Shown in pieces: positions 4,864-20,473 of a DNA stretch of 44,416 nt (positions within the stretch are counted from its first letter, which is position 1; each line of letters begins with the position of its first letter). Below the pieces are notes generated by a model. It was not told where the DNA came from and made no database searches. It saw only the letters and a program-made list of their open reading frames with translations. Location of the stretch: the NCBI GenBank assembly GCA_013152385.1, contig JAADGL010000031.1:1-44416 (forward strand), written 5' to 3'. A program made the translations under genes and the position numbers. Origin of the DNA: Acidobacteriota bacterium. Lineage in GTDB: Bacteria; Acidobacteriota; Holophagae; Thermotomaculales; Thermotomaculaceae.

Positions 4864-5550
4864 GTGAAAAGGGAGAACCTTAAAAATTATGACGGCAAAG
4901 ACGGGCGGCCCGCATATTTTGCGTACAAGGGCAAAGTGTACGACATCACCGGAAGTAAATTGTGGCGAAACGGCACCCATGTCAACCGCCATCATGCCGG
5001 GGAAGATCTTACGGATTTCATGTCCATGGCGCCCCACGCAGAAGAAGTATTAGAGCAATGCAAAATTGTGGATACGATTGACGATGAAGTTGCCGAAGAC
5101 ATTTTCATTGACCGCATGGACCGGCTCCGTGATTGGTACCGAAGATTCCATCCCCACCCCGTCACCCTGCACTATCCCATGGGTTTATTTTACTTTGCCG
5201 CTTTCATGCAGCTTTTATACCTCATTTTCAGGGTTTCAGCCTTTGAATCCGCCGCTTTTTATGCTTTTATCGGAGCTACGCTGACCACCATTCCGGCAGC
5301 AGTTTCCGGATTATTCAGCTGGTGGGTAAACTACCAGATGACACTGACCCGTATTTTCCGGATGAAAATCATTTTTACCCTTGTCATGCTGGTATTTGGT
5401 ATCAGCGGATGTGTACTGCGTTTTCTTTATCCCGGAATCTCCGCAGGCACATCGCCATTGTCATTTAGCTATTCGGCACTGGTTTTCCTGAACGTCCCGG
5501 CTTTAACCATTGTGGCCTTCAATGGCGGCAAAATAACCTGGCCTTCCTGA
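4864..5550 (+). CDS. Cytochrome b5-like heme domain fused to DUF2231 membrane domain
   Basis: The 228-residue protein starts with GTG after GGGAGG. Residues 5-75 form a prokaryotic cytochrome b5-like heme/steroid-binding domain, with likely axial histidines in GTHVNRHHAGEDL and APHAEEVL. After an amphipathic linker, residues 95-225 form a DUF2231-type membrane domain that opens with FHPHPVTLHYPMGLF and holds four hydrophobic segments. The extra conserved histidines at the start of that domain could bind another heme. It is probably an inner-membrane electron carrier; partners are unknown. A rubrerythrin-like gene follows 41 bases downstream, suggesting a redox unit. Confidence 0.8.
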   Translation: MKRENLKNYDGKDGRPAYFAYKGKVYDITGSKLWRNGTHVNRHHAGEDLTDFMSMAPHAEEVLEQCKIVDTIDDEVAEDIFIDRMDRLRDWYRRFHPHPVTLHYPMGLFYFAAFMQLLYLIFRVSAFESAAFYAFIGATLTTIPAAVSGLFSWWVNYQMTLTRIFRMKIIFTLVMLVFGISGCVLRFLYPGISAGTSPLSFSYSALVFLNVPALTIVAFNGGKITWPS

Positions 5551-6038: not shown

Positions 6039-6386
6039 ATGGACATTCAGGTTTCGGAAACGGGAAATTATATTTTACTCCGAATTGAAGGGAAACTGGA
6101 TTCGACAACATCAATGGAATTCGGAACAATTGCCGAGTCAAAGGCCAAAGAAAAACCAACAAATATGATAATTGATTTGAGCGAATTAAGCTATATCAGC
6201 AGCTCCGGCCTCCGTATATTTCTGCAGCTTGCAAAAATAGTCAAACAAAACGGCACAAAACTCTTCCTGGCCGCAATGCAGGGCCAGGTAAAAGAAATAT
6301 TCGATTTGGCAGGGTTCACCCCTTATTTCAGCATTGTAAATTCTGTAGATGAAGCATCTTCCCGCATGGGAAATGAATCCAGATGA
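6039..6386 (+). CDS. STAS-domain protein (anti-sigma-factor-antagonist type)
   Basis: This 115-residue stand-alone STAS domain is of the SpoIIAA/RsbV type. The core is seen as LIDLSELSYISSSGLRIF near residues 47-65; the serine before SGL aligns with the phosphorylated serine of SpoIIAA, while the usual Asp before it is Ser here. The C-terminal half (GTKLFLAAMQGQVKEIFDLAGF) is typical. The ATG at 6039 follows AAGGGGG. Its stop overlaps the permease start (ATGA, 6383-6386), so the two are translationally coupled. Because SulP anion transporters carry a fused STAS domain on the same transporter fold as the permease, it may bind and control that permease. Confidence 0.85.
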   Translation: MDIQVSETGNYILLRIEGKLDSTTSMEFGTIAESKAKEKPTNMIIDLSELSYISSSGLRIFLQLAKIVKQNGTKLFLAAMQGQVKEIFDLAGFTPYFSIVNSVDEASSRMGNESR

Positions 6387-8080
6387 AACGCCCGGAAAAT
6401 ATCACATACTGGGTGGATGAGGTTCCACCGCCCTGGATTTCCCTGCTTCAGGGGCTTCAGCACATCTCTGTTTATGCCATTTCGCTGGTTTTTCCCGTTC
6501 TCATTGTCAGCACCATCAACGCGTCAAAGGAACAGGCCATGTTTCTTGTCAGCGTTTCCATGATTGCCGGCGGTGTCGGGGTCATTCTCCAGGCAATTAA
6601 ACGGGGGCCCATGGGATCCGGCTTTCTGATTCCGCAAATCTGCGGCCCGTCCTTTATTCCCTCTTCTCTCCTTGCGGTTCAGGTGGGCGGCATTCCCCTG
6701 ATGCTGGGCATGACGATGTTTGCCGGTTCGCTGGAAATGGTTTTTTCCCGTTTTCTGAGAAAAATGCGCGCCCTGTTTCCCCCGGAAGTAACCGGCACCA
6801 TCGTAACAATGGTGGGAATTTCAGTGGTGGGGCTGGCAATGAAAAATTTTGCCGGCCTGGGGGGAAACGATACGGTTGTGGAACCGGCAGAGCTTCTGGT
6901 TTCCATTGTCACCCTCGGCACCATGGTCGGAATCAATGTCTGGACAAAGGGAAAACTCAAAATGTTCAGTGTGTTGGTCGGCATGGTGGTGGGATATGTC
7001 CTGGCAATATTCACCGGAGTGATTTCTCCCGGTGCCCTGGCTCAAATCAAAAATGCGTCTGCGGCATGGTTTCCCTTCACCCATCATCCCGGTTGGGCAT
7101 TCCGGGGCGATATGGTTCTGCCTTTCGGAATTGCCATGATCTGCTCTTCCCTGAAAAGCATCGGGGACATGATTACAGCCCAGAAAATCAACGACCGGGA
7201 CTGGAAACGGCCGGACATGGAAAATATCAGCGGCGGAATACTCGCGGACGGCGCCGGATGCTTCACCGCCGGAGTACTGGGGGGAATGGGACAATCCACA
7301 TCTTCCGCCAACCTCGGCCTCACCATTGCCACCGGCGTTACCAGCCGCAGAGTGGCGCTCTGGATGGGCGGCCTGCTGATTGCCGGGGGGTTTCTTCCGA
7401 AAATATCGGCTCTGTTCGCCGTTATGCCCCGGCCGCTGATGGGTTCGGTACTGATTTTCGCTTTGAGTTTTATGGTGGTGGCCGGATTCCAGATTATCAC
7501 TTCCCGGATGATGGATGCCAGAAAAACCTTTGTCGTGGGATTTTCCATTATTTTCGGCCTCAGTGCCGATTTAACACCGCAGATTTACCAGAATGTTCCC
7601 CACTGGATTCACCCGGTGGTGGCATCTTCCCTGTCCCTGTCCGCGGTTCTCGCGGTACTGTTAAACCTGGTATTCAGAATCGGAATTTCAAACAAAGAGT
7701 CTTTCAGAATACAGGTGGGCGCCGGATCCGAAGAAATTTTTCAGAAAATGGAAAAACTCGGCAAACGCTGGGGCGCAAGGCCGGAGATTATCTACCGTTC
7801 CGTCGCCGCACTGGATGAACTGCGCAGCCTGATTGAATCCTTCCCGAACCCCTCTCAATCTTTTGAGGTGAATGCCAAGTTTGATGAATTCAACCTGGAT
7901 TTGACCATCGGAGTTCCCTGGAAACTTCCGGAAACGGCTGCCGGGGAAAACGCCGCACCGCATGACGAAATTCCGACGGAAACATCCCTTGCCACAACAA
8001 TGCTCAAACGGATTCCGGACCGCATCTCCTTTCATGAAGACAAAAGCGGAACCCGAATCAAAATTCATTTTGACCATTAA
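6383..8080 (+). CDS. NCS2 (uracil/xanthine) permease with extra C-terminal RsbW-like domain
   Basis: This 565-residue inner-membrane protein has as residues 1-430 a nucleobase:cation symporter-2 transporter with about 14 hydrophobic segments. Typical marks are GLQHISVYAISLVFPVLI near the start, GPSFIPSS, and GGMGQSTSSANLGLTIATGV, which includes the substrate-site region. The likely cargo is xanthine, urate or another purine, given the neighbours. Residues 440-565 are not part of normal NCS2 permeases. They resemble an RsbW/SpoIIAB histidine-kinase-like ATPase domain (AALDELRSLIESF, LDLTIGVPW, ISFHEDKSGTRIKIHF), but the N-box asparagine appears to be lost. It overlaps the STAS gene by 4 bases. 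Substrate and domain identity are inferred. Confidence 0.8.
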   Translation: MKRPENITYWVDEVPPPWISLLQGLQHISVYAISLVFPVLIVSTINASKEQAMFLVSVSMIAGGVGVILQAIKRGPMGSGFLIPQICGPSFIPSSLLAVQVGGIPLMLGMTMFAGSLEMVFSRFLRKMRALFPPEVTGTIVTMVGISVVGLAMKNFAGLGGNDTVVEPAELLVSIVTLGTMVGINVWTKGKLKMFSVLVGMVVGYVLAIFTGVISPGALAQIKNASAAWFPFTHHPGWAFRGDMVLPFGIAMICSSLKSIGDMITAQKINDRDWKRPDMENISGGILADGAGCFTAGVLGGMGQSTSSANLGLTIATGVTSRRVALWMGGLLIAGGFLPKISALFAVMPRPLMGSVLIFALSFMVVAGFQIITSRMMDARKTFVVGFSIIFGLSADLTPQIYQNVPHWIHPVVASSLSLSAVLAVLLNLVFRIGISNKESFRIQVGAGSEEIFQKMEKLGKRWGARPEIIYRSVAALDELRSLIESFPNPSQSFEVNAKFDEFNLDLTIGVPWKLPETAAGENAAPHDEIPTETSLATTMLKRIPDRISFHEDKSGTRIKIHFDH

Positions 8081-8169: not shown

Positions 8170-8811
8170 ATGAGAGAAGGGATTCGGCCGGAACCGTTAC
8201 GACAAATCATCTATAAAGACCTGTTAAACCGGATTGTTACCGGCACACTGGAACCGGGAGTGCCGGTTCGGGACACTGAAATTTCAGAAGAAATGGGTGT
8301 CAGCCGCACACCGGTACGGGAAGCGTTGCTGCGTCTTGCCCGGCAGGGGCTGCTGGTCAACCTCCATCACAGGGGTTTTGTGGTCAGCGAAATGACAGCG
8401 GATGTTGTCAAGGAAACTTACCCGATGGTCCGGGCACTGGAATGCCTGGCACTTCAGGAATCCCCTCCCCTGCCCGAAACACTTCTGGCAAAGCTCCGGC
8501 GGCTTAATCAGTCCCTCGAAAACAGTGCGGACAAGGTGGAAAAACGGATTTCACTGGATGAACAGTGGCACGAGGTACTGCTTTCCGGATATGAAAATCA
8601 GCGGCTGAAAAATGCCATCGCGGAGCTGAAAGCGGTGGTACGGCGTTATGAGTTCGGCTATATGCGGGATGTTGAACTGGTTTCCCATTCCGTAAATGAC
8701 CATGCCCGCCTGCTCACTGTCATTGAAAATGACGGAAAAGATGCCGCACTGCCCCTTCTGGAAGCACACTGGCGCTATTCGATGGAAAATCTTTTGAAGC
8801 GAATTAAATAG
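8170..8811 (+). CDS. GntR-family (FCD subfamily) transcriptional regulator
   Basis: This 213-residue repressor has residues 5-75 as the GntR winged helix-turn-helix, with the signature EEMGVSRTPVREALLRLARQGLL. Residues 80-213 form an all-helical FCD ligand domain, in which histidines in EQWHEVLL, NDHARLLTVI and EAHWRY fit the usual metal/ligand positions. The ATG at 8170 is chosen because the domain starts there and the promoter -10 ends at 8162; an in-frame TTG at 8134 is inside the -35 box. It is the first gene of the purine operon, 29 bases before the YgeY-type gene, and probably represses it through TTGTATACAA. The ligand is unknown. Confidence 0.9.
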   Translation: MREGIRPEPLRQIIYKDLLNRIVTGTLEPGVPVRDTEISEEMGVSRTPVREALLRLARQGLLVNLHHRGFVVSEMTADVVKETYPMVRALECLALQESPPLPETLLAKLRRLNQSLENSADKVEKRISLDEQWHEVLLSGYENQRLKNAIAELKAVVRRYEFGYMRDVELVSHSVNDHARLLTVIENDGKDAALPLLEAHWRYSMENLLKRIK

Positions 8812-8840: not shown

Positions 8841-10040
8841 ATGAGTAAGATATCGGAAATTCGGGAAAAAGCGGCGGCATACCGGGACAAAACGGCTGAA
8901 AATCTGTCCGCAATGGTAAAAATACCGTCCATGAGCTGTGAAGAGGAAGCGGTTATCAATGAAATCGCCCGCCAGTGCCGGGAAGCCGGTTTTGATGAAG
9001 TCCGGGTGGACGGGCTGGGCAACCTCATCGGCCGCGTGGGCCACGGCCCGAAGATTCTCGCCATTGACGCCCATATTGACACGGTGGATGTGGGAGACCG
9101 TTCACAATGGGATTTTGACCCGTTTTCCGGTGAGATAAAAGACGGGTTTGTGCTGGGCAGAGGAAGCGCGGATCAGGAAGGAGGCGCGGCAGCCATGGTT
9201 ACCGCAGGCCGGATTCTGAAAGAGCTGGGCTATGACGGCGAATATTCGGTTTATTTCACATTCACGGTTATGGAAGAAGACTGTGACGGCATGTGCTGGA
9301 ATTATCTGATTGAAAAAGAAAAATTTGTACCCGACTTTGCCGTTTCCACCGAACCGACAAACCTGAATATTTACCGGGGCCACCGGGGCAGAATGGAGTT
9401 TGAAATTCATTTCCACGGGCTTTCCTGCCACGGGTCCGAACCGGAACGGGGCGACAATGCCATTTATAAAGCCGCCCGGTTCGCGCTGGAGGTTGAAAAA
9501 CTTCACAAGCGTCTGAAAACAGATGATTTCCTCGGAAAAGGCAGTGTCACCGCCTCCATCTGCCAGTCATCCTCCCCGTCCCAGTGTTCCGTTGCGGATT
9601 ACTGCCGCATCTATCTGGACCGCAGGCTGACATGGGGCGAAACCAAGGAAACCGCCACAGCGGAACTGGAAGCATTTTTGCCGGAGGGCGCGGAAATTAC
9701 CATTCCGGTTTATGAACGGAAAAGCTACAAGGGAACGGTTTTCACGCAGGAAAAATATTTCCCCACCTGGAAAATTCCCGAAACTCATCCGCTGGTGACT
9801 GCGGGAGCGAATGCATACCGGAAACTTTTCAGCGGGGAACCGAAGATTGACAAATGGACATTTTCAACCAACGGTGTGGCGATCTGCGGAAAACACAAAA
9901 TTCCCGTTATCGGATTCGGGCCGGGCAACGAAGTCCTCGCCCACGCACCCAACGAGAAAACCCCGGTGGACCATCTGGAAAAAGCGTCCGCGTTTTACGC
10001 GGCTCTCCCCTACATGCTGGAAAAAGGAGGAAAACAATGA
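8841..10040 (+). CDS. ygeY: YgeY-type M20-family hydrolase
   Basis: This 399-residue cytoplasmic zinc hydrolase of the M20 peptidase/deacetylase family reads very like E. coli YgeY along its whole length. Visible marks are DAHIDTV (metal His78, catalytic Asp80), GRGSADQEGG (metal Asp111), MEEDCDG (Glu145/Glu146), STEPT, GRMEFEI, CHGSEPERGDNAI, DRRLTWGET, WTFSTNG and HAPNEKT. YgeY belongs to the anaerobic purine/urate degradation gene set; it is expected to cleave an amide or carbamoyl intermediate, but its substrate cannot be read from sequence. The ATG at 8841 follows GGAGG. The stop overlaps the ygeW start (ATGA, 10037-10040). Confidence 0.92.
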   Translation: MSKISEIREKAAAYRDKTAENLSAMVKIPSMSCEEEAVINEIARQCREAGFDEVRVDGLGNLIGRVGHGPKILAIDAHIDTVDVGDRSQWDFDPFSGEIKDGFVLGRGSADQEGGAAAMVTAGRILKELGYDGEYSVYFTFTVMEEDCDGMCWNYLIEKEKFVPDFAVSTEPTNLNIYRGHRGRMEFEIHFHGLSCHGSEPERGDNAIYKAARFALEVEKLHKRLKTDDFLGKGSVTASICQSSSPSQCSVADYCRIYLDRRLTWGETKETATAELEAFLPEGAEITIPVYERKSYKGTVFTQEKYFPTWKIPETHPLVTAGANAYRKLFSGEPKIDKWTFSTNGVAICGKHKIPVIGFGPGNEVLAHAPNEKTPVDHLEKASAFYAALPYMLEKGGKQ

Positions 10041-11047
10041 GCACTCTCTTTCGCGGAAAACACCTGATTACATTTGACGACTGGACCCGGCAGGAAATCA
10101 ACACGGTTCTGGATGTTTCAATGGATTTGAAACGGCGTTACGCCCTTCGGGAACGGACAATTCTGCTGCCGGAACGGACTCTGTTTATGATTTTCTTTGA
10201 ACAGTCCACCCGGACCCGGAACTCTATGGAAGCGGCCATGACCCAGCTCGGCGGCCATGCCCACGATTTAACGGTGGACAAGATGCAGATTTCCCACGGG
10301 GAATCACCGAGAGATACCGCGAAGGTACTGTCCCGGATGGGAGACGGCATTGCCATCCGCAACTGTTTCCACGGCATCGGAAATGATTATATTTCCGAAA
10401 TTGCCCGGGAATCCGATATTCCGGTCATTTCCATGCAGGATGACATTTACCATCCCCTGCAGGTCATTGCCGACCTGATGACAATTCAGGAATATTTCGG
10501 CAAAGATTTGAAGGATATCAAAATCGCAGTTACCTGGGCTTATGCCACTTCCCATGCCAAACCCCTCTCCGTTCCCCAGTCCCAGGCACTTCTCTTTCCC
10601 CGTTTCGGCATGGATGTTGTGGTGGCGCATCCGGAAGAGTTCCCGTTGCAGAAAAACATTGTGGAAAAGGCAAAGAAAAATGCCGCAGAAGGCGGCGGCA
10701 AGCTGACCATTGTTCACGATATGGATGAAGCTGTCCGGGATGCCGATATTGTGATTCCGAAAAACTGGGGCGGATTCGGCTTTTTCGACCACTATGTGGA
10801 CGATGAAGAACATAACCGGATTATGAAGGAAAACCTTGAAAAGCACAAAGACTGGATTTATGACGAACGGCGCCTCGCCCTGTCCAAACCGGATATGAAG
10901 CTGATGCACGCGCTGCCGGCGGACCGGAACAAGGAAGTCACCGACGCTGTTTTAGACAGCGAACATGCCATTATTTACGATGAAGCGGAAAACCGCCTCC
11001 ACACCGCCCGGGCACTGCTGGCATTGACGATGGGAGGACGTGCCTGA
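10037..11047 (+). CDS. ygeW: YgeW-type carbamoyltransferase
   Basis: This 336-residue protein belongs to the aspartate/ornithine carbamoyltransferase superfamily. The carbamoyl-phosphate loop is FEQSTRTR (S57-T-R-T-R61), a second site is HPLQVIADL near 142, and the C-terminal part has LMHALPADRNKEV and EAENRLHTARALL. Neighbourhood and motifs fit the YgeW group (unknown transcarbamylase). In purine catabolism it could phosphorolyse a carbamoylated intermediate to carbamoyl phosphate for ATP formation; this is inference. It is shorter than E. coli YgeW (396 residues). The ATG is preceded by AGGAGG and overlaps the ygeY stop. Its own stop lies inside a 12-bp hairpin stem. Confidence 0.87.
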   Translation: MSTLFRGKHLITFDDWTRQEINTVLDVSMDLKRRYALRERTILLPERTLFMIFFEQSTRTRNSMEAAMTQLGGHAHDLTVDKMQISHGESPRDTAKVLSRMGDGIAIRNCFHGIGNDYISEIARESDIPVISMQDDIYHPLQVIADLMTIQEYFGKDLKDIKIAVTWAYATSHAKPLSVPQSQALLFPRFGMDVVVAHPEEFPLQKNIVEKAKKNAAEGGGKLTIVHDMDEAVRDADIVIPKNWGGFGFFDHYVDDEEHNRIMKENLEKHKDWIYDERRLALSKPDMKLMHALPADRNKEVTDAVLDSEHAIIYDEAENRLHTARALLALTMGGRA

Positions 11048-11070
11048 AACAGCCGAAACGGCTGTTTCAG
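11044..11070 (+). terminator. Strong hairpin at the ygeW stop codon, no U-run
   Basis: A perfect 12-bp stem (11044-11055 with 11059-11070) closes an AAA loop. The ygeW stop codon TGA (11045-11047) is inside the left arm. The bases after it (TAGTGTT) are only weakly T-rich, so it is not a classic terminator. It may protect the upstream mRNA end or attenuate downstream transcription. Confidence 0.5.
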
Positions 11071-11079
11071 TAGTGTTAA

Positions 11080-11125
11080 GTAAAACGGGGACTGGCAACT
11101 TCCCAGCTGCCTGTCCCCGCTTTAC
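11080..11125 (+). repeat. Second long stem-loop in the operon's only large gap
   Basis: Two 18-base arms (11080-11097 and 11108-11125) pair with two mismatches around a 10-base loop. With the preceding hairpin they fill most of the 113-base gap between the ygeW-type and threonine-synthase-like genes, the one place where genes of this operon do not nearly touch. It probably acts in RNA processing or partial termination. Confidence 0.5.
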
Positions 11126-11160
11126 GGGCCGCCCACACCCGACTGTCAACGGAGAAAAAG

Positions 11161-12354
11161 ATGAATAAAGAGACATTGCAGTTTATCTACAAATGCAGCG
11201 AATGCGGAAAAACCTACGCCATTGAGCCCGGTATCTACACCTGCCCCGACTGCACGAAGAAGCAGAAAGAAAATGAGCCTTTACGGGGGGTTCTGGATGT
11301 GGAATTGAGCGGGGCCGCCCCTGACAGCCGGGATGTACGGGATTTCCTGCCGGTTCCGAAAGATTTTTTCCCCGGTATTCCGGTGGGAAATACTCCGCTG
11401 TGGTCACCGGAACGATTGCAGAAACAACTGGGATTTCCCCGTCTCTTTATCAAGGATGACGGACTGAACCCCACCGGGTCCCTGAAAGACCGGGCATCTT
11501 ATCTTGTGGCGGCATTTGCCAGACAGCATGGAATTCAAAATATCATTGTGGCATCTACCGGCAACGCGGCTTCTTCCATGTCCGGCGTGGGGGCGGCTGC
11601 GGGACTTAATATCACAATTTTTATCCCGAAAACCGCCCCGGAAGCCAAGATGGTGCAATCCCTTCAATACGGCGCCCGGGTTATCCTCGTGGACGGGACT
11701 TACGATGATGCCTATGAGCTGTCAATGAAGTATGCCGCAAAAAATGTGTGTCTCAATCGGAATACCGCTTACAACCCATTGACTATCGAAGGAAAGAAGA
11801 CAGCCGCGCTGGAAATCTTTTTTCAGCTGGGGCGCGTACCGGATTTTGTGTTTGTCCCCGTGGGGGACGGTGTTATTATCAGCGGTGTTTTCAAGGGGTT
11901 CAATGATATTGTCAAACTCGGGCTTGCAAAGAAAATTCCCACGATTGTCGCGGTTCAGGCCGAAGGGAGCAGTGCCATCTGCCGGGCTTTCAATGCAGGC
12001 AAATTCCTTGAACCGCTTTCCTCCCGCACTGTGGCGGATTCCATCTCGGTGGATGTGCCCCGGAACGGTTTTCACGCCCTCGCGAACCTCACCCGCCATC
12101 ATGGGAAATGCCTCACCGTCTCAGATGAAGAAATTCTCACTGCACAGAAACAGCTTTCCTCCACTGCCGGGCTGTTTGCGGAACCGGCGGCCGCCACTGC
12201 CTTTGCCGGTTTTATGAAAATGAAGGCAGAGCTGGACTGTTCAGCAGAGATTGTGATGCTTTCCACCGGAAACGGCCTGAAAGATATTGTTTCCGCGAGA
12301 AAGGGGGTGGCAATACCGGAAAAGCCCGTAAAGACCACAGGTGAAATCACATGA
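11161..12354 (+). CDS. Threonine synthase-like PLP enzyme with N-terminal zinc ribbon
   Basis: This 397-residue fold-type II PLP enzyme has residues 9-33 as a zinc ribbon (Cys12, 15, 28, 31). The catalytic domain shows the PLP lysine in NPTGSLKDRAS (Lys109), the phosphate/substrate loop ASTGNAASS near 131-139, and a C-terminal LSTGNGLKD. These are threonine-synthase features. Position between ygeW and molybdenum-hydroxylase genes makes ordinary threonine synthesis unlikely; an ammonia-lyase step on a purine-derived amino acid, the role taken by YgeX in E. coli, is a plausible alternative. GGAGA precedes the ATG. It overlaps the next gene by ATGA (12351-12354). Confidence 0.8.
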   Translation: MNKETLQFIYKCSECGKTYAIEPGIYTCPDCTKKQKENEPLRGVLDVELSGAAPDSRDVRDFLPVPKDFFPGIPVGNTPLWSPERLQKQLGFPRLFIKDDGLNPTGSLKDRASYLVAAFARQHGIQNIIVASTGNAASSMSGVGAAAGLNITIFIPKTAPEAKMVQSLQYGARVILVDGTYDDAYELSMKYAAKNVCLNRNTAYNPLTIEGKKTAALEIFFQLGRVPDFVFVPVGDGVIISGVFKGFNDIVKLGLAKKIPTIVAVQAEGSSAICRAFNAGKFLEPLSSRTVADSISVDVPRNGFHALANLTRHHGKCLTVSDEEILTAQKQLSSTAGLFAEPAAATAFAGFMKMKAELDCSAEIVMLSTGNGLKDIVSARKGVAIPEKPVKTTGEIT

Positions 12355-12935
12355 ACAGGGAAACCGTCACCGGAGTTGTCCTTGCCGCCGGGTTTTCCAG
12401 CCGCATGGGAAAGTTCAAACCGGCGCTTCCGGTGAAGGGGAAACCCCTGTTGCACCATCCGGTGGAAACCCTTCTGGCAGTCTGCGGCCGTGTGCTGGTA
12501 GTTACCGGACACAACCGGGAAAAGGTGGAAGAACTGATGTCGCCCTTCCCTTCTGTTCAGCTGATTTTCAATCCGGATTTTGAAAGCGGAATGTTCTCGT
12601 CGGTAAAAACCGGCGCGGCGGCTGTGGAAACGCCCCGGTTCTTTCTGACCCCCGGCGATATTCCTTTCTTTTCCCGGAAAACATGCGAAAAACTTCTTTC
12701 ATGTGACGGGAATGTGGTTTCCCCCGCCTTTAAAGGCAAGAAAGGACACCCTGTTTTGCTGGATTATTCAATACGCAGGGAAATTCTTTCGGCACCGGAT
12801 ACGGAAATTCTCCGGAACATTCTTCACCGTCATAATCCTGTCATTGTAGAGACCGATGATGATGGAATTCTGGTGGATATTGATACGCAAACCATCTATA
12901 ATGAGTTTAAAAATACGCGCAAGGAACAATTATGA
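12351..12935 (+). CDS. mocA: MocA-like molybdopterin nucleotidyltransferase
   Basis: This 194-residue protein belongs to the MobA/MocA nucleotidyltransferase fold. The nucleotide-binding signature is VVLAAGFSSRMGKFK at residues 7-21, and LTPGDIPFFS near 101-110 is the metal-binding region. MocA makes molybdopterin cytosine dinucleotide, the cofactor form of xanthine-dehydrogenase-family enzymes, and the gene stands just before the molybdenum subunit, as ygfJ/mocA does near xdhD in E. coli. Both ends overlap neighbours by 4 bases (ATGA), so it is translationally coupled. CTP versus GTP specificity is inferred from context. Confidence 0.87.
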   Translation: MNRETVTGVVLAAGFSSRMGKFKPALPVKGKPLLHHPVETLLAVCGRVLVVTGHNREKVEELMSPFPSVQLIFNPDFESGMFSSVKTGAAAVETPRFFLTPGDIPFFSRKTCEKLLSCDGNVVSPAFKGKKGHPVLLDYSIRREILSAPDTEILRNILHRHNPVIVETDDDGILVDIDTQTIYNEFKNTRKEQL

Positions 12936-15064
12936 AGAACTCAATCAGTACTCCGACGGATCGCCTCGATGGCCCGGAAAAAGCATCGGGAAAGGCAGTT
13001 TACACAGACGATATCCGTCCCGAAGGCCTTCTTTTCGCCCGGACGCTCCGCGCAGACCGTCCGAGAGCCCGGATTACCGCCATCCGCCTGCCCGAGATTC
13101 CGGACAATTATTTTATTGTGGACAGAAATGACGTTCCCGGCCGCAACCGCATTAAAATGCTGGAAGATGACTGGCCGTTTTTTGCCGGAGAAGTCATTAA
13201 CCACGTGGGAGAACCCATTCTCCTTGTGGTGGGGCCGGACAGGGAAAAAGTAGCCGATATTCTCAACTCAATCGAGGTGGAATACGAAGACCTTCCCCCG
13301 GTTCTCTCCATTGATGATGCTATTGCGGCAAAATCGCCAATTTTCGGTGACGATAATTGCTTCGCGGCATACAGTTTCCGGAAAGGTGACCCGGACACCG
13401 CGTTTTCCACCGCGAAAACCGTTATTGAAGGCGAATTTAAAACCGGTTATCACGAACAGGCGTACATGGAGCCTCAGGGAATGATCGGAAGCTACAAAAA
13501 CGGGAAACTCACTGTCACCGGTTCCATGCAATGCCCGTTTTACGTGAAAAATGCCATGATGCAGCTCACCGGTTTCAAAGAAGACGCCGTGCAGATTATT
13601 CAGGCGACAACCGGCGGCGCATTCGGGGGAAAGGAAGAATACCCGTCCCTTCTCGCAGGCCATGTGGCTGTCGCGGCAATCAAGACCGGAAAACCGGTGA
13701 AACTTGTACTCGAAAGAGGAGAAGACCTCGCAGTCACCACAAAACGGCACCCTTCAGTCAGCCGGTACCGGTCCGCCATAGACGAAAACGGCCGGGTAAT
13801 CGCCATGGAAGCGGATATCACCCTTGACGGCGGCGCGTACGCGGGCCTGTCTGCGGTGGTGCTTCAACGGGCGCTGTTTGCCGCCATCGGCGTGTACAAT
13901 ATTCCCAACGTCACTGTCCGGGGCCGGGTAATGGCAACCAACCACGTGCCTTCCGGTGCGTTTCGCGGTTTCGGCGCGCCTCAGGCGTTTTTTGCGGTGG
14001 AAATGCACATGGAACAGATTGCTTCCGAACTGGGAATGAACCCGCTGACTTTCAAGGAAATTCATCTTGTCCGGCAGGGAGATACCACCTCAACCGGCGG
14101 CGTGCTCCGGGATGAAATTAAGATTCATGAAATGCTGGCAAAGGTGCTGAAAATGTCCAATTACAGAAAAAAGGAAGGCATTTTCGCCTCAAAAAAGGGA
14201 CGGTTCAGAAGTGGAATCGGATTGGCAATCTATCTCCACGGCTGCGGATTCACCGGAAAAGGGGAAGAAATCATCAAAGGTACGGCTACTATCCGGAAAC
14301 TGGCAGAAGACCGGGCGGAAATCCTCATTTCCAATGTGGAGATGGGACAGGGGGCCCAGACAACCCTTCGGAAAATCGTGGCAAGAATACTGGAACTGCC
14401 GATTCAGAATATTGAATACGCCAACCCGGATACCGATCGGGTACCGGATTCCGGCCCCACTGTTGCATCCCGTACTGTGATTATCGTGGGCCACCTTCTG
14501 GAATCCGCGGCAAAGGAACTGAAAAAAAGATGGAATGAAAGTGAAACGCTTTCGGTATCCAAGAGCTACCGCCACCCTTCCTACATTCAATGGGACCAGG
14601 ATAAACTTCAGGGCGACGCCTACCCCGCGTATTCATGGGGAATTGTCGCAGTGGAAGTGGAAGTGGACACATTGACATACGAAACCGCTGTCAAAGGGGT
14701 ATGGACAGTTCATGATGTCGGCATCGCCATTGACGAAGAAATTATCCGGGGACAGATTGAAGGCGGAATTCTCCAGGGACTCGGCTATGCTTCACTGGAG
14801 GTCATGGATACCGCCGACGGCGCGTACCGCCAGCACAGCTTCACAGACTACATTATTCCGACTTCGGTGGATGCCCCGGTTATCGAAAGTGAACTGATTG
14901 ACAATCCCTACGAATATGGGCCGTTCGGTGCCAAGTGTGCGGGAGAACTGCCCATCGCCGGAGCGGCACCCGCTTATGCCGCCGCTGTCAGCCACGCGCT
15001 GGGAATCGAAATCCATGAAATCCCGGTAAAACCGGAAATACTGATAAAAAGGGCGGTGAAATGA
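12932..15064 (+). CDS. xdhA: Xanthine dehydrogenase-family molybdopterin-binding subunit
   Basis: This 710-residue catalytic subunit has residues 10-110 as the ab-hammerhead domain. The rest binds the molybdenum cofactor: TTGGAFGGKEEY near 226, FRGFGAPQAFF near 344 (arginine of the substrate pocket), NVEMGQGAQTT near 467, and GPFGAKCAGELPIAG near 665, which carries the catalytic glutamate. It should hydroxylate a purine such as hypoxanthine or xanthine, or run in the reducing direction on urate. It is a separate subunit, not the long fused XdhD of E. coli, and its size is near E. coli XdhA. It overlaps the neighbours by ATGA at both ends. Confidence 0.93.
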   Translation: MKNSISTPTDRLDGPEKASGKAVYTDDIRPEGLLFARTLRADRPRARITAIRLPEIPDNYFIVDRNDVPGRNRIKMLEDDWPFFAGEVINHVGEPILLVVGPDREKVADILNSIEVEYEDLPPVLSIDDAIAAKSPIFGDDNCFAAYSFRKGDPDTAFSTAKTVIEGEFKTGYHEQAYMEPQGMIGSYKNGKLTVTGSMQCPFYVKNAMMQLTGFKEDAVQIIQATTGGAFGGKEEYPSLLAGHVAVAAIKTGKPVKLVLERGEDLAVTTKRHPSVSRYRSAIDENGRVIAMEADITLDGGAYAGLSAVVLQRALFAAIGVYNIPNVTVRGRVMATNHVPSGAFRGFGAPQAFFAVEMHMEQIASELGMNPLTFKEIHLVRQGDTTSTGGVLRDEIKIHEMLAKVLKMSNYRKKEGIFASKKGRFRSGIGLAIYLHGCGFTGKGEEIIKGTATIRKLAEDRAEILISNVEMGQGAQTTLRKIVARILELPIQNIEYANPDTDRVPDSGPTVASRTVIIVGHLLESAAKELKKRWNESETLSVSKSYRHPSYIQWDQDKLQGDAYPAYSWGIVAVEVEVDTLTYETAVKGVWTVHDVGIAIDEEIIRGQIEGGILQGLGYASLEVMDTADGAYRQHSFTDYIIPTSVDAPVIESELIDNPYEYGPFGAKCAGELPIAGAAPAYAAAVSHALGIEIHEIPVKPEILIKRAVK

Positions 15065-15537
15065 GTCAAATCATACAGTTTACCCTGAACGGAACCCCTG
15101 TCTCCCTTGAAAGCGACCCGATGCGCCGCCTTCTGGATGTTCTTCGGGATGATTTTTCCGAAACCGGGGTTAAAGAAGGCTGCGGGGAAGGAGAATGCGG
15201 CGCCTGCTCCGTTTTTCTCAACGGAAAACTGGTCAACTCCTGCCTTGTGGCACTGGGAAGCATTGAGGGGATGAATGTTGAGACAATTGTTCATTTCAAA
15301 AACACGCCGGCTTACCGGGTAATCGAACAGGCGTTCAGTGATGCCGGAGCGGTTCAATGCGGATTCTGTACACCGGGAATGGTCCTTGCCGCTTACGCAT
15401 TGCTGAAAAATAACCCCCATCCCGGTGAAAACGATATCCGTGAAGCCATTTCCGGCAACCTGTGCCGCTGCACCGGTTACAATATGATTGTGGACGGCAT
15501 CAGGCTGGCGGCTAAAAGGGGGGAAGGCAAATGGTAA
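15061..15537 (+). CDS. xdhC: Xanthine dehydrogenase-family [2Fe-2S] subunit
   Basis: This 158-residue electron-transfer subunit has the plant-type [2Fe-2S] cluster bound by Cys41, 46, 49 and 61 (GCGEGECGAC...SCL). The second cluster, in a four-helix domain, is bound by Cys100, 103, 135 and 137 (CGFC and CRC). All eight cysteines are present. It passes electrons from the molybdenum centre to FAD. The symbol follows the E. coli naming for the iron-sulfur subunit and is not the XdhC maturation factor at 17731. It overlaps the Mo subunit by 4 bases and the FAD subunit by 7. Confidence 0.95.
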   Translation: MSQIIQFTLNGTPVSLESDPMRRLLDVLRDDFSETGVKEGCGEGECGACSVFLNGKLVNSCLVALGSIEGMNVETIVHFKNTPAYRVIEQAFSDAGAVQCGFCTPGMVLAAYALLKNNPHPGENDIREAISGNLCRCTGYNMIVDGIRLAAKRGEGKW

Positions 15538-16376
15538 AATCCTATCGGCCCCGGACACTGGAAGAAGCACTGAAAATCCGCTCCGAAACCCGCTGCATCC
15601 CCTACGCCGGAGGAACCGACCTGATGGTTCGATATCGCCGGGGCGCAGGGCTCGCTGCTGGATTCGACCAGCCGGTACTGTTTATCGGACAACTTGCCGA
15701 ACTGACTCAAATTTATGAAAAAAATGGAGAACTCACCATCGGAGCCTGTGTTCCCTATCGGGAAATCATCCACCAGCGCCACACCCCGGAAATTCTCCGT
15801 CAGGCATGTGAACTCATCGGCGCACCGGCTGTCCAGAACCTCGGCACACCGGGGGGAAATATCTGCAATGCCTCTCCCGCCGGAGATACGCTGCCGCCTT
15901 TATCCGTTCTTGATGCCAATCTGACTTTGCAATCCCTTTCCGGAGAACGGAACGTCTCGATTCTGTCTTTTTTCACAGGGCCGGGAAAAACCATTCTCCG
16001 GGATGATGAACTGCTGACTGCGATTCACTTCCGTCTGCCCCATTTCACGGTGGAAGGGTACCGGAAAGTGGGGACAAGAAAGGCAAATGCCTTGTCAAAA
16101 GTATCATTTGCGGCTTTTATGCTGAAAGAAAAGGAAATGCTGGCGGATATCCGTATCGCCCTTGGCGCGGTAGCCCCCACTGTGGTGCGTTCCAGAGAAC
16201 TGGAAAACCGTCTTATCGGCCAGCCGCTTACGGATCTGGCAAAACTGCTGCCGGAAATTCTGGAAAGCTACGGAAAGCTGATCCTGCCCATCACAGACCA
16301 GCGCTCCGATGCGAATTATCGTAAAACCATCGCACTTCGCCTGATAGAAAACTTTGTACTGAAGGAGGAATCATAA
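15531..16376 (+). CDS. xdhB: Xanthine dehydrogenase-family FAD-binding subunit
   Basis: This 281-residue flavoprotein belongs to the CoxM/XdhB family. PYAGGTDLMV near residues 24-33 and LGTPGGNICNASPAGDTLPP near 104-123 bind FAD; a C-terminal CO-dehydrogenase flavoprotein domain follows (VGTRKANALSKVSFAAFML near 182-200). It completes the three-subunit hydroxylase with the two genes upstream. The order is Mo, FeS, FAD. Its ATG overlaps the FeS stop by 7 bases and its TAA shares one base with the next ATG. Confidence 0.93.
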   Translation: MVKSYRPRTLEEALKIRSETRCIPYAGGTDLMVRYRRGAGLAAGFDQPVLFIGQLAELTQIYEKNGELTIGACVPYREIIHQRHTPEILRQACELIGAPAVQNLGTPGGNICNASPAGDTLPPLSVLDANLTLQSLSGERNVSILSFFTGPGKTILRDDELLTAIHFRLPHFTVEGYRKVGTRKANALSKVSFAAFMLKEKEMLADIRIALGAVAPTVVRSRELENRLIGQPLTDLAKLLPEILESYGKLILPITDQRSDANYRKTIALRLIENFVLKEES

Positions 16377-17005
16377 TGAAATTTGATAAACAATACTGGT
16401 TGACAGCAGCCGTTTTCGGATCCATGTGGGGAATCAGTGAAGCTGTTCTCGGGACACTTCTTCACGGAATATCCCATTTTCTGACCATACCCGGATTAGC
16501 CGGACTGGTGATGTTTCCCATCGGTTTTTTCTTTATGCACCGGGCTTTTGTCAAAGGGGGGAACCGGAACATTATCTTTCAGACTGCCGCAGTGGCCGCA
16601 GCCATTAAACTGAGCGCCCTTGCCCTTCCCTTCCTGTCTCCGATGGATACGGTAAATCCGGCAATGGCGATTCTTCTCGAATCCGCAGCCGCGTTCTTCA
16701 TCATCGGCACCGAACCGGAAAAAACATTCAATTTTGCAACCGTACTGACCCTGACCGTAAGCTGGAAAAGTATTTTTGTGGCAACACAATGGATTGGCGG
16801 TATTTCCGCCGGGATGGCATTCACGGCACCGGACATTCTGATTCGATTCCTCATCATCGACAGTATCGTCAATGCCGGTTTGATTATGGCAATGACAAAA
16901 ATTCCGGCAGATTTCCGGCTGCTGAAAAAGCCTGTCCGTCCGCTTCATGCCGGAATTTCGCTTCTGACCGCAATTGTCCTGAACGGGCTGGCACTGATGA
17001 TTTAG
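16376..17005 (+). CDS. Uncharacterised multi-pass membrane protein of the xdh operon
   Basis: This 209-residue protein has six or seven hydrophobic segments (about 10-30, 38-56, 65-83, 93-112, 120-140, 150-170 and 188-208) and few charged residues between them. I recognise no family with certainty; size and hydrophobicity are compatible with an ECF-type substrate-binding (S) component, but no diagnostic motif is seen. GGAGG lies before the ATG, and the start codon shares a base with the stop of the FAD subunit gene (TAATG), so it is firmly within the operon. It may import a purine, a cofactor precursor or a metal oxyanion. Function is unknown. Confidence 0.65.
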   Translation: MKFDKQYWLTAAVFGSMWGISEAVLGTLLHGISHFLTIPGLAGLVMFPIGFFFMHRAFVKGGNRNIIFQTAAVAAAIKLSALALPFLSPMDTVNPAMAILLESAAAFFIIGTEPEKTFNFATVLTLTVSWKSIFVATQWIGGISAGMAFTAPDILIRFLIIDSIVNAGLIMAMTKIPADFRLLKKPVRPLHAGISLLTAIVLNGLALMI

Positions 17006-17008
17006 CAA

Positions 17009-17734
17009 ATGAATGTAATTGAATCGCTGATTGAATCCACCCGGGCAGTTCCGGTACGCCGTGTTCTGGCCGGATGCTTCAATACTGTTGTACAAAGCAG
17101 CGGATGGGGCATTGCCAGCACGTTAAAACCGCTGTCCCAACGGCATGAAGCCGTACCGGGAGCCGGAACACTGGTCGGCCGCAACGTAAAAGAGCTGGCG
17201 GCACTTGCCCGTTCCGACAACAGCCTTGCCGCATCCGTCGGCATTGCCGCCATCAACAGCGCCCTTGAGACCGCGGCGCTTCCGTTAAAAGAACTCAACG
17301 CCCGGGAATTGCTTGTGGAAAAGGGAAAAGGCGGTGTACTCGGCATGATCGGGCACTTTCCCTTCATCGAAAGGGTAAGAAACCTGTTCTCCGGCGCCCT
17401 CGTGTTTGAACTGAACCCTCAAAAAGGCGATCTCCCTGCGGAAGAAATCAGAAAGCGGCTGAAAGAAGCGGATGTGGTGGCAATCACCGCCACTTCCCTG
17501 ATCAACCACAGCTTTGATGAAATCATTTCCTCATGCAGAAAAGACAGTTACCGGGTACTGCTGGGGCCATCCACCCCGCTGACACCACTGCTCTTCCAAT
17601 TCGGCATTGACGCGGTTTCCGGCAGTATTGTCACCGACCCGGACACTTTTCTGCCCATGGCGGCGGAGGGAACCCCGTTCCGGAAACTGGCCGGCATCTC
17701 CCATGTCACACTTTTGAAGGAGGATATGAATTGA
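17009..17734 (+). CDS. DUF364 (Rossmann-like, putative metal-chelating) protein
   Basis: This 241-residue soluble protein has an N-terminal part like DUF4213 (VLAGCFNTVVQSSGWGIAST, LARSDNSLAASVGIAAINS). Residues 110-235 match DUF364: GKGGVLGMIGHFPFIERVR, a Rossmann-like core, ADVVAITATSLINHSFDEII and LLGPSTPLTPLLFQFGID. The family is described only as possibly heavy-metal chelating and often lies near molybdenum or metal-cofactor genes. Here it sits between a membrane protein and the XdhC-type factor, suggesting cofactor supply or maturation of the hydroxylase. It starts three bases after the upstream stop. Its stop overlaps the next start as TTGA. Confidence 0.75.
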   Translation: MNVIESLIESTRAVPVRRVLAGCFNTVVQSSGWGIASTLKPLSQRHEAVPGAGTLVGRNVKELAALARSDNSLAASVGIAAINSALETAALPLKELNARELLVEKGKGGVLGMIGHFPFIERVRNLFSGALVFELNPQKGDLPAEEIRKRLKEADVVAITATSLINHSFDEIISSCRKDSYRVLLGPSTPLTPLLFQFGIDAVSGSIVTDPDTFLPMAAEGTPFRKLAGISHVTLLKEDMN

Positions 17735-18546
17735 ACAGCATTTTTCAGCAGATTCAACAGGAAATAGAAAACGGACACCGCATCGTGCTGGCCACAGTGG
17801 TAGACAAAAAAGGACACGGGCCCGCCGCCCCCGGCGCGAGAATGCTGGTGAGGGAAGACGGGAGTGCCGTGGGCACCGTCGGCGGCGGCGCACTGGAAAA
17901 AGCGGCGCTGAAAGCGGCCGGAACCCTCTTTCAATCCGGAAAGACCGCCCTCATTCACTACAACCTCGATGATGATGACCGCCTTGTGGACAACAAAGTG
18001 GAAACCGGAATGGTCTGCGGAGGCAGCACCACTATCTTTTTTGAACTGATGGGAAACAATCCCCACCTCGTCATCCTCGGGGCCGGCCACGTGGGACAGG
18101 CTGTTCTGGCGCATGCCGCTTTGCTGGGCTACCGTATCACCGCGGCAGACAGCCGGAAAGGCCTGCTGGACAGCATCACACCTCACAAAACCATCCTTCT
18201 TCCGGATTATCGGGACGGATATGGGAAACTCGCCGTCACCAGCCGTTCTTTTGTTGTAATCTGCACACATTCCCACAGCTTTGATGCAGTGGCAATGGAA
18301 AACATCTACCGGCTTCCGGTTCAACCGGCTTACATTGGAGTCCTTGCCTCCCGGAAAAAAGCCGAAACAATGGTTAAAAAACTGAAAGAACAGCTTCCGA
18401 ACGCCGACCTGTCCCGGCTTCATATGCCGGTGGGACTTAAAATCGGCGGGCCGTCACCGCAGGAAATTGCCATCTCCATCCTGGCTGAAATTCAGGCTGT
18501 CCGGTACGGAAAAACGGGGCAAAATCACATGGGGGGAAAATGGTGA
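17731..18546 (+). CDS. XdhC/CoxI-family molybdenum hydroxylase maturation factor
   Basis: This 271-residue protein has an N-terminal XdhC/CoxI domain with VLATVVDKKGHGPAAPGARM (residues 20-39) and the conserved METGMVCGG-like segment (here VETGMVCGG near 90-98). A C-terminal Rossmann domain shows VILGAGHVGQAVLAHAALLG near 112-131. XdhC proteins bind molybdenum cofactor, assist its sulfuration and insert it into the apo-hydroxylase. E. coli YqeB is a relative encoded near xdhD. The start is TTG at 17731, placed after GAAGGAGG with correct spacing and overlapping the DUF364 stop. It overlaps the NTPase gene by 7 bases. Confidence 0.9.
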   Translation: MNSIFQQIQQEIENGHRIVLATVVDKKGHGPAAPGARMLVREDGSAVGTVGGGALEKAALKAAGTLFQSGKTALIHYNLDDDDRLVDNKVETGMVCGGSTTIFFELMGNNPHLVILGAGHVGQAVLAHAALLGYRITAADSRKGLLDSITPHKTILLPDYRDGYGKLAVTSRSFVVICTHSHSFDAVAMENIYRLPVQPAYIGVLASRKKAETMVKKLKEQLPNADLSRLHMPVGLKIGGPSPQEIAISILAEIQAVRYGKTGQNHMGGKW

Positions 18547-19016
18547 CCTTCATTGTCGGGCCGGTAAACAGCGGAAAAACCACAAAGATGGCCGCCCTGT
18601 ACCGGGAAAAAGGTGGAGACGGCATCCTCTGCCCGAAATTCATGGAAAAGGGTACCCACCGGGGCTATGACCTTGTTCACCTCAAAACCGGGCAACGCCT
18701 TCCCTTTGCCAGAATTGCCGATGCAATACCGGACAACTGGGACGAGGCATTTTCCTTCGGCCCTTACAGCTTTTCAGAAAAAGCACAGGAAAAAGCTGCT
18801 GAAATTATTAAAAATGCCGTTAAAACCGGAATTTCACCTGTTTTTCTCGACGAAATCGGCCCGGTAGAACTGCAAAACAGGGGATTTGCCCCCCTGTTTC
18901 GTTCCCTGTCGAATTCCGGAAAAGATACAATCGTGAGCGTACGGGATTTCCTGTTTGAACAAATTATTGAATTCTTTGAGATAAAGAACAATCAAATTTA
19001 TAAGGAGCAGATATGA
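18540..19016 (+). CDS. THEP1-like nucleoside-triphosphatase
   Basis: This 158-residue P-loop protein has Walker A GPVNSGKTT at residues 7-15 and Walker B VFLDEIGPVEL near 99-109, followed by a conserved arginine region near 138. The layout matches the NTPase_1 (THEP1) family of small nucleoside-triphosphatases, which also resemble MobB-type proteins. Its place next to the XdhC-type factor suggests energy-dependent cofactor handling rather than general NTP hydrolysis; this is inference. The ATG overlaps the upstream gene by 7 bases and its stop overlaps the next start as ATGA. Confidence 0.78.
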   Translation: MVTFIVGPVNSGKTTKMAALYREKGGDGILCPKFMEKGTHRGYDLVHLKTGQRLPFARIADAIPDNWDEAFSFGPYSFSEKAQEKAAEIIKNAVKTGISPVFLDEIGPVELQNRGFAPLFRSLSNSGKDTIVSVRDFLFEQIIEFFEIKNNQIYKEQI

Positions 19017-20473
19017 TTGACTTAACTGTGAACAAAGCACAACTTGAAAAAACAGCAGAACGCTGCCGGGAACGGGGCATTGTCCTTCCCACTTTCGACC
19101 AGATGAAACACCCGGAAAACGTGCCGGACTGGGCAAAGAAAGAACTGAAAAACATCGGGCTCTGGGATGTTCATCCCCGGAACCTCTTCCGCATTACCTG
19201 GAAAAACGAACCGGTTGTCAAAGGCGGAACCTACGGGGATGTCAATTACGTGGAATTTCCGCCGGAACTCACCGGCGTCAATGCCAGAATCATCGCCCTC
19301 GTGGGCAAATGGTTTCCCACCGGCGCCCATAAAGTCGGTGCAACCTACGGCTGCCTCGCTCCCCGTCTCACCACCGGCCAGTTCAACCCTGTTACCCAGA
19401 AAGCGGTCTGGCCCTCCACCGGAAACTACTGCCGGGGCGGCGCCTATGTCTCCGCACTTCTCGCCTGCGAATCCATCGCCATTTTACCGGAAGAAATGTC
19501 AAAAGAACGGTTTGAATGGCTCTCCAACGTTGCCGGCGAAGTCATCGCCACCCCCGGCTGCGAAAGCAACGTCAAGGAAATCTTCGACAAATGCTGGGAA
19601 CTCCACGAAGAACGGGGAGATGACATTGTAATCTTTAACCAGTTTGACGAATTCGGAAACCATCTCTGGCATTACGAAGTTACCGGAAACGCCATGCTGG
19701 AAGTTTTGAAAAAGGAAATGAAACCGGGCCAGGAATACGCCGGCGTTGTTCTCACCTCCGGTTCATCCGGTACAATGGGCAGCGCGGATTTTCTGAAAGA
19801 ACAGTTCCCCGGCTCCAAGCTGGTGGTCAGCGAAGCCCTGCAATGCCCCACCCTGCTCTTAAACGGGTTCGGCGGCCACCGCATCGAAGGTATCGGCGAC
19901 AAACACGTACCCTGGATTCACAACGCGAGAAATACCGATATGGTCACCGCCATTGACGACGAGCACCCCATGCGCCTTATCCGCCTCTTCAACGAGCCGA
20001 AGGGAAGAGAATACCTGAAAAAACAGGGGATTAACCCCGAACTGGTGGACAACCTCGACCTTCTGGGCATCTCCGGTGTGGCAAACCTGCTTTCCTCCAT
20101 CAAATTTGCCCGTTACTTCGAGCTTACCGGCGATGACATTGTCCTCACCGTCCTCACCGACTCCATGGAACTCTACGGTTCAAGAATGCGGGAACTCCAC
20201 GAAGAAAGGGGTGAATACAGTGAGATTGACGCGGGGAAAGACTATGAACTTTTAACATCCATCACCCCGGACTATACCGAAGAACTCAATTTCTACGGCA
20301 GAAAACGGATTCACAACCTCAAATACTATACCTGGATCGAACAGCAGCAGAAAGAACTGCCGGAACTCAACGCCCAATGGCATGATTACCGCAATTACTG
20401 GAAAAAAATCCACGATATGGTTCCGAAAATTGACGAACGTATCGAGGAATTCAATGCAATGGTGCGGGGCTGA
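19013..20473 (+). CDS. Unusual fold-type II PLP-dependent enzyme
   Basis: This 486-residue protein shows a cysteine-synthase-like PLP fold: lysine in PTGAHKVGAT (Lys107), a substrate loop PSTGNYCRGG (134-143) and a glycine-rich phosphate cup TSGSSGTMG (248-256). About 90 residues precede the catalytic region and about 130 follow it, longer than ordinary members. It is not close to YgeX, threonine synthase or cysteine synthase by eye. As the last gene of the purine operon it may eliminate ammonia from, or split, an amino-acid-like purine breakdown product; no substrate can be assigned. GGAGC precedes the ATG and an intrinsic terminator follows. Confidence 0.75.
   Translation: MIDLTVNKAQLEKTAERCRERGIVLPTFDQMKHPENVPDWAKKELKNIGLWDVHPRNLFRITWKNEPVVKGGTYGDVNYVEFPPELTGVNARIIALVGKWFPTGAHKVGATYGCLAPRLTTGQFNPVTQKAVWPSTGNYCRGGAYVSALLACESIAILPEEMSKERFEWLSNVAGEVIATPGCESNVKEIFDKCWELHEERGDDIVIFNQFDEFGNHLWHYEVTGNAMLEVLKKEMKPGQEYAGVVLTSGSSGTMGSADFLKEQFPGSKLVVSEALQCPTLLLNGFGGHRIEGIGDKHVPWIHNARNTDMVTAIDDEHPMRLIRLFNEPKGREYLKKQGINPELVDNLDLLGISGVANLLSSIKFARYFELTGDDIVLTVLTDSMELYGSRMRELHEERGEYSEIDAGKDYELLTSITPDYTEELNFYGRKRIHNLKYYTWIEQQQKELPELNAQWHDYRNYWKKIHDMVPKIDERIEEFNAMVRG

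Follow-up and report, generated by a model that had tools for sequence, protein, structure and literature searches.

Partner switching is the textbook mode of control of sigma factors, and what the STAS domains of the SLC26 transporters do is a matter of continuing debate. Analysis of a stretch of 44,416 nucleotides from an Acidobacteriota bacterium (contig JAADGL010000031.1, positions 1 to 44,416; hereafter the window) revealed a gene pair that touches on both: a gene for a STAS-domain-only protein overlaps a gene for a permease of the NCS2 fold, and the C-terminal tail of this permease is almost certainly a degenerate RsbW domain.

The permease and its relatives with the same tail (the fusions) resemble the RsbW/SpoIIAB, RsbV/SpoIIAA and RsbU/SpoIIE modules in the fold of the tail, the fold of the STAS partner, the phospho-acceptor Ser and the PP2C and active RsbW genes that accompany many of the fusions. 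They differ from RsbW/SpoIIAB in that the tail forms part of a transporter and has no N-box Asn, adenine-binding Asp or GxG, and in that the fusion implies no sigma factor partner, the archaeal carriers having none. The NCS2/NAT proteins (UraA, UapA, XanQ/PbuX) share with the fusions the membrane fold, the QH motif of transmembrane helix (TM) 1, the Asp of LADG and the Asn-x-Gly of TM10; unlike the nucleobase carriers among them, the fusions have neither the TM8 Glu nor the TM10 Gln/Glu and bear an extra C-terminal domain. In SulP/SLC26 a related 7+7 fold is likewise coupled to a STAS domain, but there the STAS domain is fused, whereas here it is separate and the fused part is its RsbW-like partner. 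A free STAS protein, MlaB, acts on the ATP-binding cassette (ABC) transporter MlaFEDB, the interface including the position of the phospho-site (PMC7367683). MlaB is thus like the STAS protein described here in accompanying a transporter as a free protein, but it binds the ABC ATPase and its phosphorylation has not been shown. The CbrA/CrbS transceptors also join a transporter to a GHKL-type signalling domain, though with an SLC5 fold, a STAC domain and an active histidine kinase, whereas the present proteins combine NCS2 with a seemingly dead RsbW-type domain. No description of NCS2 permeases joined with HATPase or STAS partners was found in open-access papers, and permeases go unmentioned in a review of STAS-only proteins. 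A transporter with a dead STAS-binding kinase beside a free STAS protein would join the partner-switching and SLC26 fields, would give organisms that lack sigma factors a possible output for their partner-switch modules, and would allow control of transport by STAS to be tested directly in the UraA/SLC26 fold.

The open reading frame of the STAS protein starts with the ATG at 6039, preceded by an AGGGGG Shine-Dalgarno-like stretch, and stops at 6384-6386, while that of the permease (6383-8080, forward strand) encodes 565 residues comprising the membrane part and the tail. The features of the pair are as follows.

6039..6386, + strand: STAS-domain-only protein of the SpoIIAA/RsbV type, 115 residues (Pfam STAS and TIGR00377), kept beside the permease in the congener
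6201..6203, + strand: codon of STAS Ser55, invariant in STAS alignment A4
6383..6386, + strand: stop of the STAS gene and start of the permease gene overlapping as ATGA, read from the sequence; same overlap in L084/L006 and L061
6383..7684, + strand: membrane part of NCS2/UraA fold, residues 1-434 (Pfam 2.6e-53; AlphaFold2 model matching UapA at 2.8e-15 and UraA)
7154..7156, + strand: Lys258 at the position of the TM8 substrate-binding Glu (UapA E356, UraA E241), from alignments
7307..7309, + strand: Ala309 at the position of the TM10 substrate-binding Gln/Glu (UapA Q408, UraA E290), from alignments
7685..8077, + strand: residues 435-565, almost certainly a degenerate RsbW/SpoIIAB-like domain (GHKL, HATPase_c_2), from AlphaFold2, Foldseek and a profile-profile comparison (E=2.4e-6)
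7817..7819, + strand: Glu479, the N-box Glu, which is retained; Leu483, four residues further, occupies the position of the N-box Asn

The STAS protein matched Pfam STAS (PF01740) at E=4.2e-22 and TIGR00377 at E=4.8e-22, both above cut-off. Its Ser55 aligned with the invariant Ser of the alignment, two residues before the conserved Gly, which we take to be the position of phosphorylation in SpoIIAA/RsbV. The overlap of the two genes, already remarked upon in an initial annotation made from the sequence alone, was confirmed, and an identical gene pair with the same ATGA overlap occurs in a congeneric genome (G003), the permeases being 83% and the tails about 50% identical. Since this congener carries the pair with the same overlap, and since full-length tailed homologues exist in other phyla, the pair is not a product of chance coding. 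The overlap makes translational coupling of the STAS protein and the permease likely.

The initial annotation had further described the last 125 residues of the permease as lying outside the transporter fold and resembling a histidine-kinase-type ATPase of the RsbW kind that had lost the N-box Asn. The tail does lie outside the transporter fold, no transporter family matching residues 435-565 and the AlphaFold2 model placing them in a separate domain, but its length is 131 residues. Searched alone, these residues matched nothing in Pfam, including HATPase_c_2 (PF13581), or in NCBIfam, so the relation to RsbW becomes visible only with relatives, profiles or structure. The domain was predicted neither as disordered nor as another fold but as RsbW/SpoIIAB-like, with the order strand-helix-helix-strand-strand-loop-helix-strand-strand, with a mean predicted local distance difference test score of 76 for the tail modelled alone. 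Foldseek comparison of the tail model with the PDB returned 20 chains with E<=0.001, of which 18 were SpoIIAB, RsbW or UsfX, the remaining two both belonging to a single Leptospira response regulator. Comparison of the tail profile with RsbW proteins gave E=1.3e-4 when the profile was built from six tails and 2.4e-6 when it was built from 18. The tails of six out of 18 relatives, searched singly, matched HATPase_c_2 at E<1 (best 3.4e-6); the window tail itself gave no hit and did not reach the Pfam gathering score. The tail profile also retrieved a genuine RsbW of 138 residues (L072), while against PDB sequences it found only a designed protein at E=1.5, which is chance level. Because the structure search, the profile comparison, the HATPase_c_2 matches and the retrieval of this RsbW agree, the fold and homology of the tail are regarded as firm. 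A SulP-like reading of the tail as a STAS domain was rejected, since a control comparison with the STAS profile gave E=0.59 and the fold is RsbW-like.

A second kind of NCS2-HATPase fusion was noted in another genome (L082, G667:C21, 8212-10053; 613 residues). Its permease part is distant and its tail is less worn, matching HATPase_c_2 at 4.8e-5, slightly under the cut-off, and keeping an EE pair at the N-box without the Asn.

Alignment of 41 tails with 13 RsbW proteins showed that the N-box Asn was absent from every tail and present in every RsbW, in agreement with its loss in the window. The Asp of the G1 box, which binds adenine, occurred in 0 of 41 tails (Tyr in 35) and in 11 of 13 RsbW proteins, while the second GxG (G2) ended in Gly in one tail and in all 13 RsbW proteins. 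The N-box Glu was kept in 35 of the tails and the G1 Gly in 37. In addition, the tails have in common residues absent from RsbW, namely W463 and R466 (WGAR), F500-D506 (FDEFNLD) and a terminal HFxH (562-565), in window numbering. As judged from these alignments the domain is clearly under selection and is probably not an ATP-dependent kinase.

The membrane part matched Pfam Xan_ur_permease (PF00860) over residues 21-395 (E=2.6e-53; 181.6 bits against a cut-off of 27), and the NCBIfam pbuX model TIGR03173 extended to residue 431 with 272 of 414 bits, which is below cut-off. An AlphaFold2 model built with six homologues gave an NCS2-fold membrane part whose best structural matches were UapA and UraA. 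In UapA and UraA the base is held by the TM8 Glu and the TM10 Gln/Glu, which reportedly are both required for its binding and transport (PMC3405029). Neither was kept in any of the 41 tail-bearing permeases, in which the TM8 position was occupied by K or R in 32 and the TM10 position by Ser, Ala, Gly or Thr, while the other NCS2 motifs named above were retained. Control rows L002, L076, L078 and L079 were left out of this alignment because of wrong reading frames. The tail-less relatives L075 and L083 share the TM8 Lys, which therefore marks a wider subfamily and is not specific to the fusions. L083 (G002:C5:22534-23830) is a tail-less NCS2 gene of the same genus, interrupted by a stop or a change of frame. 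It is possible that the fusion permeases carry an anion, or that their ligand is sensed rather than carried.

We compared the neighbourhoods of 38 fusion loci with those of 40 regions of similar size taken at fixed coordinates from the same genomes. A gene for STAS, PP2C of the SpoIIE type or RsbW was found near 14 of the 38 fusions and in two of the 40 controls (p=5.7e-4), a STAS gene at 13 against one, and STAS together with PP2C at 12 against none (p=6e-5); these p values are optimistic because some loci are close kin. On a tree of the permease cores, from which NL002 was omitted on account of a wrong reading frame, the linkage state changed at least 11 times, and the linkage is thus not confined to one lineage. 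The arrangement varied: STAS-PP2C-RsbW-fusion on one strand in L117, the same set convergent with the fusion in L116, fusion-STAS-PP2C-RsbW in L013, fusion-STAS-PP2C in L118 and L123, STAS and PP2C beside the fusion in L057, and PP2C-STAS-fusion with the four-base ATGA overlap in the Desulfobacterota locus L061. In Desulfofustis glycolicus (L012) the fusion is followed, after two intervening genes, by those for a dCache-PP2C-HATPase protein and STAS. All three genes lie near the fusion in L013, L116 and L117 and, more loosely, in L012, L067, L084, L112, L123 and L127. A 5TMR-LYT receptor domain stands in front of the PP2C at six loci, and a dCache domain is present in L084 and L012. The association with partner switching that the initial annotation had proposed is therefore real and recurrent.

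Searches for the tail identified it in 2 of 396 genomes of the Acidobacteriota, in 16 of 395 from the phylum that includes Desulfofustis (among these 16 are three weak or partial matches, including an ordinary RsbW), in 4 of 398 from that of Bauldia and in 14 of 295 from the phylum to which a Euryarchaeota metagenome-assembled genome belongs. The fusion is thus present in Acidobacteriota, Desulfobacterota and Pseudomonadota as well as in archaea devoid of sigma factors. Sigma-70 region 2 gave no match in 13 genomes of the archaeal carrier group and a match in all five bacteria tested; its absence from the 13 genomes is what archaea should show. Two weak extra matches (L009, L010) obtained in a search of the Acidobacteriota with two tails were rejected as unrelated proteins. 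The nearest permease core outside the genus of the window belongs to the Desulfobacterota set (L066), which makes lateral transfer of the fusion likely. Two archaeal genomes carry two tailed NCS2 genes in tandem, the second tail being shortened (L120:8532-11926 and L121:8413-11808).

We propose that the permease would be the membrane-bound end of a partner switch. The tail, as an RsbW/SpoIIAB homologue that would have lost ATP binding and kinase activity, would have been retained as a docking platform for STAS. The unphosphorylated STAS protein would bind the tail and alter the state of the transporter, phosphorylation of its serine by an RsbW-type kinase would release it, and binding would be restored by a PP2C of the SpoIIE type, in many cases a membrane receptor whose gene is adjacent, so that the kinase and phosphatase together would set the amount of STAS free to dock. 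In the genome of the window, where other contigs encode eight SpoIIE proteins as well as RsbW-like proteins whose N-boxes are intact, the STAS protein would be co-produced with the permease through the ATGA coupling, and the kinases and phosphatases would come from other loci. Docking of STAS on the tail is probable. We slightly favour the further step that docking gates the transporter as set by kinase and phosphatase, with the permease as output and not sensor. Since the archaeal carriers have no sigma-70, the switch must act there on another target, and the permease itself would be a natural one. That the fusions form a widespread bacterial and archaeal class, in which a remodelled NCS2 protein with a dead anti-sigma-kinase domain competes with active RsbW for STAS, as transceptor or as gated transporter, and ties partner switching to the membrane, independently of sigma factors in archaea, is put forward tentatively, as a possibility short of even chances. 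Several observations weigh against the proposed switch: the fetched flanks of 24 of the 38 fusion loci hold no module gene, among them those of L066 (7.8 kb upstream and 3.3 kb downstream), whose permease core is the nearest from another phylum, and the window locus has STAS without an adjacent RsbW kinase or PP2C. When tail-less NCS2 genes from the genomes concerned served as reference, the linkage was 14 of 38 against 1 of 10 (p=0.14), in the same direction and not significant; three of these tail-less controls, and the one on contig C29 of the genome of the window, had been missed by the permease profile and were placed from other searches.

The absence of the TM8 Glu and TM10 Gln/Glu from all fusions, on a scaffold otherwise kept, is also what a receptor might show. 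The NCS2 part could bind or slowly carry a ligand, its conformation deciding the hold of the tail on STAS, with the switch acting on sigma factors or enzymes; bacterial carriers have many sigma factors, and there is precedent for transporter-receptors fused to signalling domains (CbrA). We nevertheless consider such a transceptor rather doubtful, as the archaeal carriers have no sigma factor, the neighbouring PP2Cs have receptor domains of their own, which makes a second sensor less needed, and the Lys shared by two tail-less relatives indicates that the loss is not specific to the fusions. The tail may instead have left partner switching altogether, the former ATP pocket now accommodating either a small molecule or another tail, with the STAS neighbours as historical leftovers. 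The replacement of the ATP motifs by conserved W463, R466, D501, E502, N504, D506, H562 and H565 and the many loci without a nearby module would fit, but the linkage recurs in distant lineages above background, and the ATGA overlap of STAS and permease is found in the window, its congener and a Desulfobacterota genome, and this explanation appears improbable.

The initial annotation had called the protein a purine permease, and the genes downstream in the window suggest purines:

8170..8811, + strand: GntR/FCD regulator, downstream of the permease
8844..18546, + strand: purine-catabolism-like cluster with YgeY, a YgeW-like carbamoyltransferase, a PALP enzyme, a MocA-like protein, three xanthine-dehydrogenase-like subunits and an XdhC-like protein

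With such neighbours the protein might be an ordinary permease of a purine-degradation operon, its extension unimportant and the STAS gene there by chance. This is very improbable, given that bacteria and archaea alike have conserved the tail, that the nucleobase-binding residues are missing and that the pbuX score falls below its cut-off. Nor did purine-catabolism genes recur in the neighbourhoods of the other fusion loci examined, the congener included, and a conserved link between the permease and purine catabolism was rejected on this ground. Of the initial designation the NCS2 fold stands, while its purine part is weakened. The observation of a STAS gene and a permease with an RsbW-like tail is confirmed; the interpretation as a whole is partly supported, its partner-switch idea being strengthened by the comparative evidence.

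The purine-degradation-like cluster can be followed over 8844-20473 and contains a split xanthine dehydrogenase and two PALP enzymes, one of which (19013-20473) is not well named by NCBIfam; the score of the YgeW-like carbamoyltransferase falls between families. Upstream of the STAS-permease pair, a DUF2231 membrane protein is encoded both in the window (4864-5550) and at the Desulfobacterota locus L061 (4416-5336), the two matching each other at E=2.7e-41, and that of the window has a cytochrome-b5-like N-terminus.
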